This document shows positions 8,750-15,284 of a stretch of DNA of 20,184 nt, piece by piece. How positions within the stretch are numbered: position 1 is the stretch's first letter; the number at the start of each line of letters is the position of its first letter. Source of the stretch: a virus; IMG/VR virus record IMGVR_UViG_3300032236_000469, positions 1 through 20,184 of that record; one strand, 5' to 3'. Position numbers and translations under genes: made by a program. The notes under the pieces were generated by a model, which worked only from the letters and a program-made list of their open reading frames with translations, did no database searches and was not told the origin of the DNA.

Positions 8750-8947
8750 ATGAACTCCCCGGCAAAACGCAACGAGAACGGCTACCGGATTGGTGACTCG
8801 CATCACAATGCCCGGCTCACGGATCATGAGATCGAGCTGATCCGGCAGCTGCGGGCCGAGGGCATGAAGGTGCGGGACATTGCCCGCAAGTTTGGGGTGT
8901 CCAAGGGCTATGTGTCCAAGGTGGTGGCCTACCTGATCCGGCGCTAG
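8750..8947 (+). CDS. Small helix-turn-helix protein
   Basis: 65-aa protein. Residues about 23-65 ('LTDHEIELIRQLRAEGMKVRDIARKFGVSKGYVSKVVAYLIRR') are a clear helix-turn-helix of the resolvase/Trp-repressor-like type ('DIARKFGVSKGYVSKVV'). The N-terminal 22 residues are polar ('NSPAKRNENGYRIGDSHHNAR'). It could be a regulator, an origin-binding protein or a terminase accessory. It lies directly between the GCAAC array and the terminase genes, and the first copy of the late promoter-like element overlaps its TAG stop codon. The ribosome-binding site is weak (AAGAAGAGA). DNA binding is well supported; the target is unknown. Confidence 0.8.
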   Translation: MNSPAKRNENGYRIGDSHHNARLTDHEIELIRQLRAEGMKVRDIARKFGVSKGYVSKVVAYLIRR

Positions 8948-8982
8948 TTTCCATAACCCGAGTCGGCACGCATACATTGCGC
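8947..8982 (+). promoter_or_regulatory. Late promoter-like element, copy 1
   Basis: 36-bp element: GTTTCCATA at the left end, -10-like TACATT at 8973-8978, CGC at the right end. Position 1 is the G of the preceding TAG stop. Predicted transcription start (7 bases after the -10-like box) falls at 8985, the A of the terminase small subunit ATG. Confidence 0.65.
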
Positions 8983-8984
8983 GC

Positions 8985-9371
8985 ATGACTCACCCCGAAC
9001 CACCTGGCGTTGTCGATGGCATGACGCACGACGAGCGCGTCGAAGAGTTCTTGCGCTTACTCGGCCAGGGTTGCCGTGTGCGCGATGCCGCGGCCGCTGT
9101 TGCCATCCATTACTCCACGCTCTATCGCAAGCGTAACGAGGATCCTGCCTTTGCCAAGCGCTGGGAGGACGCACAGCGGGTGTCTGTCAAGCATTTGATA
9201 GCAGAGGCAGAGCGACGTGCGATGAGCGGCTCAGACAAGCTGCTGATCTTCCTGTTGCAGTCCTACGATCCCGACAAGTTCAAGCAGCGCCAAGCGATTG
9301 AGCACGAGGGCGGCTTCTCATTGCAAGTGGTCACTGGTGTACCCACTTCGCCCGTGGACGATTTGATGTGA
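8985..9371 (+). CDS. Terminase small subunit
   Basis: 128-aa DNA-packaging protein: an N-terminal helix-turn-helix ('EFLRLLGQGCRVRDAAAAVAIHYSTLYRKRNEDPAFAKRWEDA') for recognising phage DNA, a helical middle ('LIAEAERRAMSGSDKLLIFLLQSYDPDKFKQRQ') typical of oligomerising small terminases, and a C-terminal tail for contacting the large subunit. The ATG at 8985 has no ribosome-binding site but sits at position 39 of the late promoter-like element, so a leaderless mRNA is likely; Met13 (9021) is an alternative start and also lacks one. The stop overlaps the GTG start of the large subunit gene in GTGA. Confidence 0.88.
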   Translation: MTHPEPPGVVDGMTHDERVEEFLRLLGQGCRVRDAAAAVAIHYSTLYRKRNEDPAFAKRWEDAQRVSVKHLIAEAERRAMSGSDKLLIFLLQSYDPDKFKQRQAIEHEGGFSLQVVTGVPTSPVDDLM

Positions 9372-10720
9372 GCCCGGTCGATCTGCAATACAAACCGCGT
9401 GAGTGGCAACGAGAGTGCCACCTCAAACGTCAACGCTTTACTGTGCTTGCATTGCATCGTCGTGCCGGCAAGACTGAGCTGGCAATTGCCGAGCTCGTTG
9501 ATAAGGCTGCGCAGTTCACACTGCCCATGGGCTTGTTCTTCTACGTTACGCCGCTACTCAAGCAGGCCAAGACCGTGGCCTGGCTGCGACTCAAGGCCCG
9601 TGTCGAACCACTGCGTCGCTATGGCGCGGTCGAAGTCAACGAGTCCGAGCTCTCTGTCACGTTCAAGCACAACGCCGCAGTGATTCGTTTGTATGGTGGC
9701 GACAACCCCGATGGCATGCGCGGCGTGCGACTCGATGGTGTGGTGATCGACGAGGTGGCGCAGATCAAACCCGAAGTGTGGGACGAGATCATTCGGCCAG
9801 CGCTTGCTGACCGTCAAGGCTGGGCACTGTTCATCGGTACACCGCACGGTGTGAACTTGTTCTCGCGTTTGTTCTACGAAGGCCAGACACTGCCAGGTTG
9901 GCACTCTGCGCTTTACACGGTGTACGACACCGATGCGCTACCCGAAAACGAAATCGCTGTGCTGCGCTCGCAGATGAGCGAGACGGCGTTTGCACGCGAG
10001 ATGCTGTGCGACTTCTCTGCAGCCGGCGACGATCAACTGATCTCCATCCTCGAGGCCGAAGAGTCGTGCCGTCGCAAGCTCAAGCTGGGCGAGGTGGACC
10101 ATGCGCCCAAGATTCTCGGTGTGGACCCTGCACGCTTTGGTGATGACCGCAGCGTGATCTTTCCACGTCAAGGGCTGCAAGCGTTTGATCCGCTCGTGTT
10201 CGAGGGCATCGACAACATGCAGCTGGCCGCGAAGGTTGCGCAAAAGATTGTCGATTGGGAACCTGACGCGGTGTTCATTGACTCGGGCAACGGTGGTGGC
10301 GTGATCGATCGCCTTCGCCAACTGGGCCACGACATCATCGAGGTCAACTTCGGTGGCAAGAGTGGCTCACACCTGTACGCAAACAAACGCGCGCAGATGT
10401 GGTTCGAGATGCGCGATTGGGTGCGTGCTGGTGGCTGCATGCCCAACATCGCTGCGCTCAAGCAAGACCTCGGTGCACCGACCTACAAGTACAACCCGAG
10501 CAACCAACTGATCCTCGAGCCCAAGGACGACATCAAGAAACGTGGCCTGCCATCACCTGACCTGGGCGATGCGCTCGCACTCACGTTTGCATTCCCCGTG
10601 AGCAAGCGCAACCCATTCAAGCGCACAACGCACGCGATGCACTACGACCCGCTGGAGCAGTTCTCGAGTTTCCATAACCAAGCGCAGCGCGAATACGATC
10701 CGCTGGCATTTAATCGATGA
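9368..10720 (+). CDS. Terminase large subunit
   Basis: 450-aa packaging motor ATPase and nuclease. ATPase: Walker A-like 'RRAGKT' (31-36), Walker B 'VVIDE' with D128-E129, and coupling motif 'GTPHG' (157-161). RNase H-like nuclease: D253 in 'GVDPARFGDD', D305 in 'FIDSGNGGG', and D398/D401 in 'SPDLGDALALTFA'. All key acidic residues are present. It begins with GTG at 9368 overlapping the small-subunit stop (GTGA), which implies coupling. Length is normal to slightly short for the family. Its 3' end carries copy 2 of the late promoter-like element inside the coding sequence (10668-10703). Confidence 0.95.
   Translation: MSPVDLQYKPREWQRECHLKRQRFTVLALHRRAGKTELAIAELVDKAAQFTLPMGLFFYVTPLLKQAKTVAWLRLKARVEPLRRYGAVEVNESELSVTFKHNAAVIRLYGGDNPDGMRGVRLDGVVIDEVAQIKPEVWDEIIRPALADRQGWALFIGTPHGVNLFSRLFYEGQTLPGWHSALYTVYDTDALPENEIAVLRSQMSETAFAREMLCDFSAAGDDQLISILEAEESCRRKLKLGEVDHAPKILGVDPARFGDDRSVIFPRQGLQAFDPLVFEGIDNMQLAAKVAQKIVDWEPDAVFIDSGNGGGVIDRLRQLGHDIIEVNFGGKSGSHLYANKRAQMWFEMRDWVRAGGCMPNIAALKQDLGAPTYKYNPSNQLILEPKDDIKKRGLPSPDLGDALALTFAFPVSKRNPFKRTTHAMHYDPLEQFSSFHNQAQREYDPLAFNR
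10668..10703 (+). promoter_or_regulatory. Late promoter-like element, copy 2 (inside terminase gene)
   Basis: Same 36-bp architecture as the other copies: GTTTCCATA, then -10-like TACGAT at 10694-10699 and CCGC at the end. The right part, CGCG-N-ATACGATCCGC, is nearly identical to the copy at 11393. It lies within the last codons of the terminase gene; the predicted start (about 10706) gives a 24-base leader to the next ATG, which contains a GAGGTGA ribosome-binding site. Confidence 0.6.
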
Positions 10721-10729
10721 GGTGAACCC

Positions 10730-11392
10730 ATGGGCGGCAGCAGCAGCATCATTCCCGTATTGGCAACCATTGCCTTGGCCGTTGCAACGGATGGCGCAAG
10801 CCTGGCCGAAGAGGGCGTAGCCGCTGCCGGCGAAGGTGCAGTAGCCGCAGGTGAGGGCGCAGCCGCTGCCGAAGGCGGTGGCCTGGCTGCCAGTGAAGGC
10901 GTCGTCGAAGGCGCAACCGTAGGTGACGCCACGGCCACCAGCGCTGAGACACTGGCATCGCAAGACGCGGTCGCAGCAGACAGCATCGACATGGGCGGTG
11001 GATATAACCCGGCCACCGGTGCAGGCGATGCGGCCACGGCCAACGCTGCCGCTGAAACCGGCGAGACCTTGAGCGCATCGGGCATGACCACCGCCGCAAG
11101 TGAATCGAGCAGCGCAGGCTTGCTCGACACATTGCGCGCAGCGGGCACAGGTTTGCAACTGGGCTCACTCGCAGCAACCCTACTCACACCACAACCGACA
11201 GCCGACTCCAACGCAGCGATGGGCACAGGCAACACCAGTGGCGCAACGCAAGGTGCAACGAGCGCCATGGGCCCAGGCGGTGCAGGTGCAAGCGGCGGCT
11301 CTTCGGGCACGATCCCTGGCGTGGCCGGCACACTGCTCACGACCAAAGACCAGATGGGCGGCGCGAGTGGCGGCACATTGCTCGGCTCGTAA
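10730..11392 (+). CDS. Ala/Gly-rich hypothetical virion-region protein
   Basis: 220-aa protein dominated by Ala, Gly, Ser and Thr, with acidic Glu-Gly-Ala repeats between residues about 20-60 ('AEEGVAAAGEGAVAAGEG'). The N-terminus ('MGGSSSIIPVLATIALAVA') is a Gly/Ser lead followed by a weakly hydrophobic stretch. The C-terminus ends 'GTLLTTKDQMGGASGGTLLG'. A related T-x-L-T...T-L-x-G ending occurs in the 100-aa protein at 11893, and I recall similar endings in small proteins near podovirus portal genes. It is probably a minor virion or assembly protein; function unknown. GAGGTGA precedes the ATG. Confidence 0.72.
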   Translation: MGGSSSIIPVLATIALAVATDGASLAEEGVAAAGEGAVAAGEGAAAAEGGGLAASEGVVEGATVGDATATSAETLASQDAVAADSIDMGGGYNPATGAGDAATANAAAETGETLSASGMTTAASESSSAGLLDTLRAAGTGLQLGSLAATLLTPQPTADSNAAMGTGNTSGATQGATSAMGPGGAGASGGSSGTIPGVAGTLLTTKDQMGGASGGTLLGS

Positions 11393-11428
11393 GTTTCCAT
11401 AACTAGAACGCACGCGCATACGATCCGC
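11393..11428 (+). promoter_or_regulatory. Late promoter-like element, copy 3
   Basis: 36-bp element starting directly after the TAA stop at 11390-11392: GTTTCCATA, -10-like TACGAT at 11419-11424, and CCGC at 11425-11428. The predicted start near 11431 gives a 23-base leader containing GGAGGAG ahead of the acetyltransferase TTG codon. Confidence 0.65.
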
Positions 11429-11453
11429 AGGAATTTGCGGAGGAGTAACTCAT

Positions 11454-11891
11454 TTGCCGATTCGTGAAGTCAACATCGCCGAACACTTTGACGCCACGCT
11501 GCCATTGATGCAGCAGAACTGGCGCGAGACCGGATTCGATTTTGAGTTCGCGCCATCGAAAGAGATTTACGAGGCCGCGCAAGCAAGTGGTGTGCTACTC
11601 GCGTTGGGTGCATTTCACGAGGATGAATTGGTGGGCTATGCCACCGCGGTGCTCTCACCGCACCCATTCAATCCCGCAGTGAAGATGTGCTTGACCGATG
11701 CACTGTTCGTCTCGCCGCTCTACCGCGGTGGTGCGCTCCCTGGCAGGCTCATGCTGACCATCGAACGCATCGCCAAAGAGCGCGGCGCGAAGTATGTGAT
11801 GTGGCACACCCGCGCTGGAACCCGGCTCGCTGACATGCTGCGCAAGCGTGGCTACATCGATGCTGACACCGTTGTGATGAAGGAGCTATGA
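11454..11891 (+). CDS. GNAT-family N-acetyltransferase
   Basis: 145-aa enzyme of the acetyl-CoA-dependent GNAT superfamily. Seen: a central strand 'LVGYATAVLSPHPF', then motif A with strand 'TDALFVSPLYRGG' and pyrophosphate-binding loop 'YRGGALPGRLM' (R-G-G-A-L-P-G-R), and a C-terminal 'GTRLADMLRKRGY...TVVMKEL', the usual GNAT end. The start is TTG at 11454, set by GGAGGAG upstream. The substrate is unknown; it may modify a host or virion protein, or a small molecule. Such genes occur near portal genes of other phages. It has its own late promoter-like element. AAGGAG in its last codons serves the following gene. Confidence 0.87.
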   Translation: MPIREVNIAEHFDATLPLMQQNWRETGFDFEFAPSKEIYEAAQASGVLLALGAFHEDELVGYATAVLSPHPFNPAVKMCLTDALFVSPLYRGGALPGRLMLTIERIAKERGAKYVMWHTRAGTRLADMLRKRGYIDADTVVMKEL

Positions 11892-11892
11892 C

Positions 11893-12195
11893 ATGGGAAT
11901 TGAAGCGGCAGTAGCAGGAGGTGCACTAGGTGGCATGGTCCTGGCCGGCATGCAAAAGCAGCCGAGCATTCCCGCACCCACCGCCGTGACTCCACCACCG
12001 GAATCACAAGCGGCCAAGACACCGGACGTGCAAACCGTGCTCGCACAAACTGCAGGCACAGGACAAGCTGGCGGTGCACCGGGTGTGGGGCAAACCTTCC
12101 TCACAGGTGCAGGCGGCGTGGATCCCGCATTGCTCAAGCTGGACAAGAAAACCTTGACCGGCTCGAGTGGCAAAGACACCAACGACGCCTCATAA
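11893..12195 (+). CDS. Small Gly/Ala/Pro-rich protein upstream of portal
   Basis: 100-aa protein: N-terminal hydrophobic Gly/Ala stretch ('EAAVAGGALGGMVLAGM'), a Pro/Ala/Thr-rich middle, and a C-terminal 'TFLTGAGGVDPALLKLDKKTLTG'. This ending resembles that of the 220-aa protein at 10730 and endings I recall in small portal-adjacent podovirus proteins. Possibly a minor virion component; not established. AAGGAG precedes the ATG. The gene ends 3 bases before the portal ATG. Confidence 0.75.
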   Translation: MGIEAAVAGGALGGMVLAGMQKQPSIPAPTAVTPPPESQAAKTPDVQTVLAQTAGTGQAGGAPGVGQTFLTGAGGVDPALLKLDKKTLTGSSGKDTNDAS

Positions 12196-12198
12196 ACT

Positions 12199-13890
12199 AT
12201 GTCCGAAGCCCCAAAGAAATCGCAAAAGCAACAAGTCATCACCCGACTTGGTCAGCTCAAGGCCGAGCGTGCAACGTGGTTCGCACACTGGCAAGAGATC
12301 ACCACCTACTTACTGCCACGCCAGGGTCGCTACTTTAGGCAAGACCACAACAAAGGCTGGAAGCGCAACAACTCGATCTTTGACAACACCGGCACACGCG
12401 CGCTCTACACGCTGGCCGCGGGCCTCATGGGTGGTTTGACATCACCCGCACGTCCTTGGTTTCGCTTGGGTGTGGATGATCCTGATTTGATGAAGAGCGC
12501 CGCGGTCAAAGATTGGCTCTCGACCGCCACGACCGCGATGCTCGATGTGTTCGCACGCTCGAACGTGTACCGCGCACTGTCCTCGATGTACTTGGAGCTC
12601 GGCTCATTTGGTACAGCCGCGGCCATCGTGGTCGAAGACTACGAGAACGTGATCCACCTGTTCCCACTGACGGCCGGCGAGTATTGCATCGCCACCGATT
12701 GGAAGGGCAACGTGTGCACGCTCTATCGCGAGTTCGAGAAGCCCGTCGGTGAGATCGTCAAAGAGTTCGGCTACGACAACTGCTCAACGCAAGTGCAAAA
12801 CCTGTACGACCGCGGGTCCCTGGATCAGTGGATCCCGATCGTGCATGCGATCGAGCCACGCGCAGATCGTGACGCTGCCAAAGCGGACGCGCTCAACATG
12901 CCTTGGAAGTCGGTGTACTACGAGTTGTCTGGTCGCGAAGATAAGACACTGCGTGAGTCTGGCTTCAAACGATTTAACGTGCTCGCACCTCGCTGGGACG
13001 TGGCCGGCGGTGACATCTACGGCAACAGCCCTGGCATGGAAGCACTGGGCGACATCAAACAATTGCAACAAGAGCAGCTGCGCAAATCGCAGGGTATCGA
13101 CTACATGACGAACCCGCCGCTGCAAGTGCCAACCAACCTCAAGAACCGCGACGTCGATCGTCTGCCTGGTGGCGTGACCTATCGCGACAGCTCGGGCAAC
13201 GGCGACAAGATCGAATCGATGTTCGATGTGCGCTTGGACATGAACCACTTGCTGGCCGACATCCAAGACGTGCGTCAACGCATTCGTGGCTCGTTCTACG
13301 CAGACATGTTCTTGATGCTGCAAAACGATGTGGACACGCGCAAGACCGCCACCGAAGTGGCCGAGCTGCACGAAGAGAAGATGCTCATGCTCGGCCCCGT
13401 GCTCGAGCGCTTGCATAACGAATTGCTCACACCGCTGATCGACATCACGTTTGATCGCATGATGGAGGCAGGCATCTTGCCGCCACCACCCGAAGAGCTG
13501 CAAGGCCAGGATCTGAACATCGAGCTCGTCTCCATGTTGGCCCAGGCCCAGCGCGCGATCGCAACCAACGGCGTGGACCGCTTTGTCAACAACCTGGTGG
13601 CGCTGGCGCAAAGCAAGCCCGAGGTGCTGGACAAACTGAACGTGGACTATTGGGCCGACACCTACAGCGACATGCTCGGTGTGGATCCCAAATTGCTTGT
13701 GCCCGAAGACCAGGTGCAAGCGATCCGACAACAACGTGCGCAGGCCCAGGCCCAAGCACAACAAGCCGCAGCAATGGAACAAGCTGCTGGCGCTGCAAAC
13801 AAGCTGGGGAACACCCCGACTCAAGGTGGCACGAGCACCGGACTCGATGACGCCATTGGCATGTTTTCCGGCTACACACAAGGAGCTTAA
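12199..13890 (+). CDS. Portal protein (podovirus head-to-tail connector)
   Basis: 563-aa portal of the T7 gp8-like head-tail connector family. It forms the ring at the capsid vertex through which DNA passes. Family features: 'ERATWFAHWQEITTYLLPRQGRYF', 'NTGTRALYTLAAGLMGGLTSPARPWFRL', 'LGSFGTAAAIVVED', 'YGNSPGMEALGDIKQLQQEQ', and 'TATEVAELHEEKMLMLGPVLERLHNELLTPL'. Residues about 510-540 are a Gln/Ala-rich helix ('AQAQAQQAAAMEQAA') and the C-terminus is flexible. Length is close to T7 gp8 (536 aa). The start lacks a clear ribosome-binding site and follows the upstream stop by 3 bases, so reinitiation is likely. Confidence 0.95.
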   Translation: MSEAPKKSQKQQVITRLGQLKAERATWFAHWQEITTYLLPRQGRYFRQDHNKGWKRNNSIFDNTGTRALYTLAAGLMGGLTSPARPWFRLGVDDPDLMKSAAVKDWLSTATTAMLDVFARSNVYRALSSMYLELGSFGTAAAIVVEDYENVIHLFPLTAGEYCIATDWKGNVCTLYREFEKPVGEIVKEFGYDNCSTQVQNLYDRGSLDQWIPIVHAIEPRADRDAAKADALNMPWKSVYYELSGREDKTLRESGFKRFNVLAPRWDVAGGDIYGNSPGMEALGDIKQLQQEQLRKSQGIDYMTNPPLQVPTNLKNRDVDRLPGGVTYRDSSGNGDKIESMFDVRLDMNHLLADIQDVRQRIRGSFYADMFLMLQNDVDTRKTATEVAELHEEKMLMLGPVLERLHNELLTPLIDITFDRMMEAGILPPPPEELQGQDLNIELVSMLAQAQRAIATNGVDRFVNNLVALAQSKPEVLDKLNVDYWADTYSDMLGVDPKLLVPEDQVQAIRQQRAQAQAQAQQAAAMEQAAGAANKLGNTPTQGGTSTGLDDAIGMFSGYTQGA

Positions 13891-13892
13891 TC

Positions 13893-14207
13893 ATGGGCAT
13901 GAAATTTACCGCCGCCACCATCAGCGGCACAGGCTATTCCAACTCACACGAGTACGACGGCTATCCGATCACACCAAACGACACGCTGACAACTTACCAA
14001 GCGCAAGTGCCACAACTGAACGGCAACGTGCAGCGCGGCGACGCACTGTATGTGACCGGCGCAGGCAACATCGCGATCAAACTGAACAGCGCCGGCGACA
14101 CCGCCTCGTTAACTGAGTCGGCCAACACTTTGGTCCCGATCGCTGCGCATCAAATCCTGGCAACCGGTACGACTGCGACCGGCTTGTACATGCTCTTTCG
14201 TCTGTGA
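13893..14207 (+). CDS. Small beta-rich hypothetical head protein
   Basis: 104-aa protein starting MGMKFTAATISGTGYSNSHEY, rich in Thr, Gly, Asn and Ala with no charged clusters. It has repeated short strands ('GDALYVTGAGNIAIKLNSAGDTASLT', 'GTTATGLYMLFRL'), consistent with a virion surface or decoration protein. Not recognised as a defined family. AAGGAG precedes the ATG; Met3 is an alternative start. It lies between portal and another beta-rich protein in the head operon. Confidence 0.75.
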   Translation: MGMKFTAATISGTGYSNSHEYDGYPITPNDTLTTYQAQVPQLNGNVQRGDALYVTGAGNIAIKLNSAGDTASLTESANTLVPIAAHQILATGTTATGLYMLFRL

Positions 14208-14215
14208 GGTAAATC

Positions 14216-14587
14216 ATGGCAACCGTTGCAGGACAAGACCAACTATTTTTACAAAACCACCGTGTTCGCACTTGGTCACCCTTGACCACGACCAACTCGG
14301 ATGGCGATCCGATCAGCTATGCGTCCAACGGCATGGGCGGCTGCACGTTCCAAGTGAACGGCACGTTCGGCTCGGGCGGCACGCTGATTGTGGAAGGCAG
14401 CAACGACAAGACCAACTGGTACACCTTGAGTGACCAGGCCAACTCGCCCGTGTCGTTCTCGTCAGCCGGTTTGAAAACCGTGCGCGATCAGCCGCTCTAC
14501 ATTCGTCCTCGCTTGAACGGTGGCGACGGCACATCTTCATTGACTGTCGTTGCAGCCTTTCAAAAGACCGCATCGCTTAACGCATAA
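14216..14587 (+). CDS. Beta-sandwich-like hypothetical virion protein
   Basis: 123-aa protein. The core 'GGCTFQVNGTFGSGGTLIVEGSNDKTNWYTLSDQ' is the pattern 'G.F..GGT..LEGSNDGTNW..L', which I recall in immunoglobulin-like or jelly-roll domains of phage head and decoration proteins. It ends 'LYIRPRLNGGDGTSSLTVVAAFQ', also strand-rich. Probably a capsid-surface or structural protein. GAGGT precedes the ATG. No enzymatic motif, signal or membrane segment. Confidence 0.78.
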   Translation: MATVAGQDQLFLQNHRVRTWSPLTTTNSDGDPISYASNGMGGCTFQVNGTFGSGGTLIVEGSNDKTNWYTLSDQANSPVSFSSAGLKTVRDQPLYIRPRLNGGDGTSSLTVVAAFQKTASLNA

Positions 14588-14598
14588 GGAAAAAGCAC

Positions 14599-14925
14599 AT
14601 GGCACAAGTCGACATGAAGATGAGCGCGGAAGAAGTCAAAGAGTACACCGAGCCATCCGTGGGCGATGCACCCGAGTATCCCTACGGCCTGCGCATTTCG
14701 CTTGACGATGATGCGCTCGAAAAGCTGGGCTTGACTCAGCTGCCGGCCGTGGGCACGAAGATGCAACTTTCGGCCACGGTCGAAGTGTGCAGCACGTCTG
14801 CCTACTCCACGCAAGAGGGCGAGTCCGAAGCATCGGTGTCCTTGCAGATCACTGCGATGGAGCTGGGCAGCGCGCAGCAATCGACCAGCGCAGCGTCCAT
14901 GCTGTACGGCGGTGACAACGACTAA
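14599..14925 (+). CDS. Capsid staple-like protein
   Basis: 108-aa protein. The pattern 'MKMSAEEVKEYTEPSVGDAPEYPYGLRISLDDDALEKLGL', then 'LPAVGTKMQLSATVEVCSTSAY', then 'SVSLQITAMEL' matches proteins I recall annotated as capsid staple protein, the epsilon15 gp10-like stabiliser of comparable size (about 111 aa). Such proteins bridge capsid subunits from outside. The identification rests on recalled sequence pattern. AAGGA precedes the ATG. The stop codon TAA is immediately followed by copy 4 of the late promoter-like element. Confidence 0.75.
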   Translation: MAQVDMKMSAEEVKEYTEPSVGDAPEYPYGLRISLDDDALEKLGLTQLPAVGTKMQLSATVEVCSTSAYSTQEGESEASVSLQITAMELGSAQQSTSAASMLYGGDND

Positions 14926-14961
14926 GTTTCCATATCTTGATTGCATAAAACTATATTCCGC
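14926..14961 (+). promoter_or_regulatory. Late promoter-like element, copy 4
   Basis: 36-bp element directly after the TAA stop: GTTTCCATA, then TATATT at 14952-14957 (the best sigma-70-like -10 of the four, five of six), then CCGC. Predicted start at 14964 coincides with the next ATG. Confidence 0.65.
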
Positions 14962-14963
14962 AC

Positions 14964-15284
14964 ATGAAAAAGGACAACTACGACGCCTTTGATTTGCCGT
15001 CTCAAGAGGCGCAACGCAAAGACGCCGAAGAAAAAGCGAAGCTTCGCGCTCGCATCGAGATCGATGACATCAAGTGGGTCATGTCGAACAAACGTGGCCG
15101 TCGCATGATGCACGGCGTGCTCGAGCGTGCGGGAGTTTTCCGGCTGTCGTTTCACACCAATGCGTTGCAAATGGCGTTTAACGAGGGCACGCGCAATGAA
15201 GGATTGGCAGTTCTTGCTCGCTTGATGGAGCACTGCCCCGAGCTGTATTCATTGATGCTAAAGGAGCAAAAAGACGATGAGTGA
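14964..15284 (+). CDS. Bbp19-like phage protein
   Basis: 106-aa, charged, helical protein. 'DDIKWVMSNKRGRRMMHGVLERAGVFRLSFHTNALQMAFNEGTRNEGLAVLARLMEHCPELYSLML' matches the conserved pattern of a small protein encoded just before the scaffold in BPP-1-like phages (Bbp19 in BPP-1, as I recall). Function unknown; likely head assembly. The ATG at 14964 has no ribosome-binding site and lies at position 39 of promoter-like copy 4, the same register as the terminase small subunit, so leaderless translation is likely. Its 3' end overlaps the scaffold gene by 8 bases. Confidence 0.82.
   Translation: MKKDNYDAFDLPSQEAQRKDAEEKAKLRARIEIDDIKWVMSNKRGRRMMHGVLERAGVFRLSFHTNALQMAFNEGTRNEGLAVLARLMEHCPELYSLMLKEQKDDE

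Follow-up and report, generated by a model that had tools for sequence, protein, structure and literature searches.

The window, i.e. the whole stretch of viral DNA that was analysed (20,184 nucleotides), carried a gene for a small helix-turn-helix (HTH) protein, followed on the same strand by the small and large terminase genes, a 220-aa Ala/Gly-rich ORF, a GNAT gene and, further on, a Bbp19-like gene. As shown in Table 1, four copies of a repeated element were found among these genes.

Table 1. Features of the HTH gene and the late region in the window
Feature	Position	Strand	Remarks
65-aa HTH protein, proposed late activator, Bbp27 ortholog	8750..8947	+	profiles, orthologs, predicted structure
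Copy 1, box GTTTCCATA	8947..8955	+	-38 to -30 if ATG = +1
Copy 1, -10 element TACATT	8973..8978	+	small-terminase ATG at 8985, 6 nt on; predicted leaderless
Small terminase subunit, first late gene	8985..9371	+	phrog_4044, 4e-22
Large terminase subunit, copy 2 at 3' end	9368..10720	+	profile matches
Copy 2, box	10668..10676	+	within 3' end of large terminase gene; counterpart L021:1064
Copy 2, -10 element TACGAT	10694..10699	+	following start 10730, GAGGTG before start
Copy 3, box	11393..11401	+	directly after stop of ORF 10730-11392
Copy 3, -10 element TACGAT	11419..11424	+	GNAT gene start (TTG) 11454, GGAGGAG ribosome site
Copy 4, box	14926..14934	+	counterparts L021:7268 and BPP-1 20746, ahead of bbp19
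Copy 4, -10 element TATATT	14952..14957	+	Bbp19-like ATG at 14964, 6 nt on; predicted leaderless
Bbp19-like gene, PF25181, downstream of copy 4	14964..15284	+	profile match

The core of the element was a 9-bp box, a 17-bp spacing and TAnnnT. A search of the window with GTTTCCATA-N17-TAnnnT gave four exact matches (starting at 8947, 10668, 11393 and 14926), all on the + strand, and a search of both strands with GTTTCCATANC-N15-TANNNTNCGC, allowing up to 3 mismatches, gave the same number, all perfect and all on the + strand. In shuffled versions of the window, a comparison that the initial annotation had proposed, the latter pattern matched 0.04 times on average, and none of 100 shuffles reached four. 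The coordinates and the common bases given in that annotation agreed with our check of the window, and GTTTCCATA was absent from the rest of the window, in line with its remark that the early regions held no copy. The CGC that it placed at positions 34-36 of the element was indeed common to the window copies but was not kept across relatives.

The first G of the copy 1 box was also the final base of the HTH gene stop codon. Copy 2 was not intergenic: it lay within the large terminase gene (9368-10720), in the codons for the C terminus. At copies 1 and 4 an ATG (8985 and 14964) lay exactly 6 nt past the hexamer, so that the predicted +1 coincides with the A of the start codon or adjoins it. The genes downstream of copies 2 and 3 had ribosome sites instead. 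The Ala/Gly-rich ORF (10730-11392) between copies 2 and 3 had no homolog among the relatives fetched with TerL, and the two copies flanking it shared TACGATCCGC, a pattern reminiscent of gene gain accompanied by promoter duplication. Judged from sequence, the four copies are very probably start signals for the structural genes.

Relatives, which were first gathered via TerL and HTH homology and are hence related, carried a variant, GTnnnCnTn-N17-TAnnnT, at the same places; its copies were near-identical within each genome and differed between genomes. Upstream of other Bbp19-like orthologs, boxes such as GTACGCGTG, GTGCGCGTA, GTGTCCGTG and GTGCCCGTG were followed by 17 bp and TAnnnT. What was conserved across relatives was the architecture, not the letters. 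Exact GTTTCCATA was found only in the window and in L021 among the sequences searched, L021 having the window box letters at both corresponding places that it covered, and the box as a conserved sequence was rejected. Relatives that keep the genes but not the intergenic sequence had been named in the initial annotation as a refutation; in dozens of relatives the architecture and its place were kept, whereas the box letters changed.

With a partly degenerate box, the first set of relatives gave 66 late-strand sites at a spacer of 17, none at 16 or 18, and a single site on the opposite strand; a further set gave 117 late-strand sites versus 0 on the other strand. When each genome's own exact box was counted anywhere, 183 were on the late strand versus 1 on the opposite strand. 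The hexamer 17 bp past these own boxes had T1 in 79%, A2 in 95%, A4 in 62% and T6 in 97%, values that are partly selected, since a genome needed one TAnnnT site or more to be counted. The distance from the hexamer to the ATG, taken over 190 sites, peaked at 6 (55) and 7 (20), so that many of the mRNAs should be leaderless. The complete genomes of BPP-1, DC33, zth2-2, ctEw122 and ctQRb9 each contained exactly four identical boxes, every one of them on the late strand, with the opposite strand free of them. A few clades had a spacer of 18; one of them (L148, L149, L154, L156 and L161) carried GTATCCGTG at that distance rather than 17. No clear repeated box was seen in some HTH-positive genomes (SR18, L005, L084 and others). 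The HTH relative of Caulobacter phage SR18 (L185, 2421-2666) had an insertion ahead of the helix-turn-helix; this genome lacked a repeated box of this type and may use another box. Limnohabitans phage DC33 (L183, PQ492659) is filed under Inoviridae despite its head-to-tail connecting and portal genes; from these genes and its reported short tail (PMC12195039), it is a tailed podovirus.

Several copies flanked the terminase genes, as would be expected of intergenic packaging, recombination or terminase-binding sites. We regard this explanation as extremely improbable, because the element has promoter properties (its -10 letters, a fixed spacing of 17 bp and an ATG 6-7 nt past the hexamer), and because complete genomes also carried copies ahead of the Bbp19-like gene and of tail genes.

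Start signals were also indicated by the promoter features themselves: several copies were found, at late genes and on the late strand only, with a -10-like hexamer at a fixed spacing and starts at the expected distance. The hexamer had been read as -10-like in the initial annotation, and its letters, the spacing and the ATG offset in relatives fit a -10 element. The left box had been judged not to be a normal sigma-70 -35; it lies at the -35 position and is not TTGACA, and a standard sigma-70 promoter was rejected, as a consensus scan found no TTGACA partner at the four window sites. No extended -10 was seen at the sites either. A sigma-70 promoter without a -35 or an extended -10 normally depends on an activator. 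A phage RNA polymerase or sigma factor as the reader of the element was rejected also, as searches of the window (a fragment record) and of five complete relatives revealed neither a T7-type RNA polymerase nor sigma region 2, whereas phage C171, the control, yielded a strong polymerase match. The variant polymerase considered in the initial annotation is unlikely for the same reason, and host RNA polymerase is the likely enzyme. The near-constant 17-bp spacing fits contact with polymerase.

The protein encoded directly upstream of copy 1 matched the HTH_38 and HTH_7 profiles above their curated cut-offs. Its predicted helices spanned residues 25-37, 41-48 and 52-59, with a recognition helix at about 52-59 (KGYVSKVV) that includes Lys57. 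The AlphaFold model was of moderate confidence (pLDDT 76.7), and a structure search with it returned generic HTH folds only, none with E < 0.001, and no close solved relative. The orthologs adjoined the terminase genes on their upstream side in relatives. The window protein shared the features of a Bbp27-like family, i.e. an NExGxRIGExHPxA motif with an HTH, a size of about 65-80 residues and a gene just upstream of the terminase genes. The BPP-1 ortholog is Bbp27, which occupies the same place and is annotated as an 'endonuclease'. No nuclease domain family matched in 22 members or in the window protein, HTH profiles dominating (Bbp27 was not scanned alone); a homing/HNH endonuclease identity was not supported by this result, and 'endonuclease' is probably a mislabelling of Bbp27. 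The HTH part had weak profile similarity to Sigma70_r4, YlxM and a positive control sigma-like factor, all below curated cut-offs; Sigma-70 region 4 (PF04545) scored 17.4 to 17.9 bits versus a cut-off of 24.1.

The box letters were then compared with the HTH sequences of 79 non-redundant genomes. Column 71 of the HTH alignment (Lys57 of the window protein, in the recognition helix) tracked base 5 of the box. Lys went with C in 36/36 genomes and His with C in 14/14 (together 50/50), whereas Gly went with G in 11/11, Ser in 5/5 and Asp in 4/4 (together 20/20). Asn (1/1) and Ala (1/1) went with A, and Arg with A in five and C in two, so that A accompanied Arg, Asn or Ala in 7/9. Arg at this position was accompanied by C in L173, L045 and L198 and by A in the BPP-1-like group (IGRIC helix). 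In leave-cluster-out prediction of base 5, column 71 was the best of 919 columns of the HTH, TerL, Bbp19-like and portal proteins (0.857), the next-best being a portal column (0.821), so that by this measure alone the margin over ancestry is small. The first clustering was too coarse (7 clusters), and independent pairs on the tree were used instead. The TerL tree required 8 or more changes of base 5; independent pairs agreed in 6/6 for G with Gly/Ser/Asp (p=0.031), in about 4.8/5 for C with Lys/His, which alone falls short of p=0.05, and in 3/3 for A. By this comparison of sequences, residue and base stay linked through repeated independent changes. At box positions 3, 4, 7 and 9 no HTH determinant could be separated from shared ancestry, and for 4, 7 and 9 terminase, portal or Bbp19-like columns predicted equally well or better.

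A later genome set, which played no part in finding the base-5 rule, gave clear fits in five loci (Lys with C in L192 and L200, Asp with G in L197, Arg with A in L190 and L193) and partial fits in L191 and L194, each of which had the expected box plus another; L198 followed the Arg-with-C exception. The close pair L029 and L032 were 96% identical in TerL and 93% in portal versus 77% in the HTH protein, and their recognition helices were VTKRSVAAICQY and VTKSCIAGICQY, respectively. Two sites, separated by about 4.5 kb that encodes well-conserved proteins, both read GTACACATA in L029, but GTGCGCGTA in L032 and in L033, a near-twin of L032.

This covariation makes the small neighbouring HTH protein the probable reader of the box. 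A host factor or host alternative sigma could read it instead, the HTH protein being a bystander that varies with phage lineage. Some terminase, portal and Bbp19-like columns do associate with box letters via shared ancestry. Such a host reader is nevertheless very unlikely, for the box and the HTH helix changed together between phages as close as the above pair, the residue-base link survived repeated independent changes, and the box was absent from TerL relatives lacking the HTH protein (0/9, versus 16/21 of those with it; p=1.4e-4). The negative controls were Pseudomonas phage AF, phage C171 and a Vibrio phage.

We consider it highly likely that the four copies are late promoters of a BPP-1-like podovirus, used by host RNA polymerase with a phage HTH protein reading the box. 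Host sigma-70 would read the -10 (TAnnnT); the missing -35 would be replaced by a box of 9-10 bp. The HTH product of ORF 8750-8947 (Bbp27 in BPP-1) would bind this box at -38 to -30 and there bring in or stabilise the host polymerase. With its gene placed last ahead of the late block, this product should be present by the time late transcription begins. Activation would take place at four sites (at the end of the large terminase gene and ahead of the small terminase, GNAT and Bbp19-like genes), and transcripts from copies 1 and 4 would have their first base at the A of the ATG or adjacent to it. The suggestion of the initial annotation that late promoters here need a factor reading GTTTCCATA gains support from the kept architecture and from the covariation of box letters with an HTH protein of the phage. 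The present analysis adds a name for the probable factor, the predicted leaderless starts and the covariation of factor and box.

Binding of the boxes by the HTH protein might also serve to repress the late promoters early in infection, since covariation reveals recognition and not its sign, and a factor on -38 to -30 might obstruct sigma region 4. Repression seems unlikely, however: with neither a TTGACA-like -35 nor an extended -10, the sites would be weak without a helper, the box stands in for a -35 rather than overlapping one, and the distance to the -10 hardly departs from 17, as expected for polymerase contact.

Activation by the HTH protein would resemble the middle promoters of phage T4, where a MotA box replaces the -35 and, with AsiA, sigma is appropriated (PMC2988021); in both, a phage DNA-binding protein would read a short box in place of the -35 and host sigma-70 the -10. 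The centre of the MotA box is at -30, with about 12 bp to the -10, whereas the window box lies at -38 to -30, 17 bp away. MotA has two domains with a double-wing DNA-binding fold, whereas the window protein is a single small three-helix HTH; and the T4 system serves middle genes, whereas that of the window is predicted to serve late, often leaderless genes. As box position, protein and gene class differ, the window system is not a member of the T4 MotA system. Sigma-70 region 4 and YlxM/UPF0122-type HTH proteins share with the window protein a weak similarity of the HTH part and the binding at the -35 position that is proposed here; unlike sigma-70 factors, the window protein is without region 2 or a core-binding part. 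Bordetella phage BPP-1 has the same system, with four GTGCCCGTG boxes on the late strand and the orthologous HTH gene in the same place. No description of Bbp27 or of BPP-1 late promoters was found in the open-licence literature, and an earlier description elsewhere is possible. In BPP-1 (L182, 26255-26318) the box (26293), AAAACT and an ATG 6 nt later all lie downstream of the annotated start of bbp26 (small terminase), which is probably misannotated.

More broadly, and with less confidence, we favour the view that a widespread family of single-domain Bbp27-like proteins, not described before, supplies at late promoters the specificity that host RNA polymerase otherwise takes from the -35, and that its code has switched repeatedly, all promoters of a genome changing alongside. 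If so, the residue-to-base rule (Lys/His to C, Gly/Ser/Asp to G) would be a readable specificity code of a minimal promoter-specificity factor, which may act in place of sigma region 4. As the factor is small, its box is readable in any genome and nature provides specificity-switched pairs, the protein-DNA code could be tested directly, and so could this way of redirecting host RNA polymerase. These results name the probable late-gene switch of BPP-1, the model phage for diversity-generating retroelements, and of aquatic podoviruses, a large group for which the open-licence literature searched gave no account of late control. For many phages without annotation, they would also supply operon starts and corrections of start codons.
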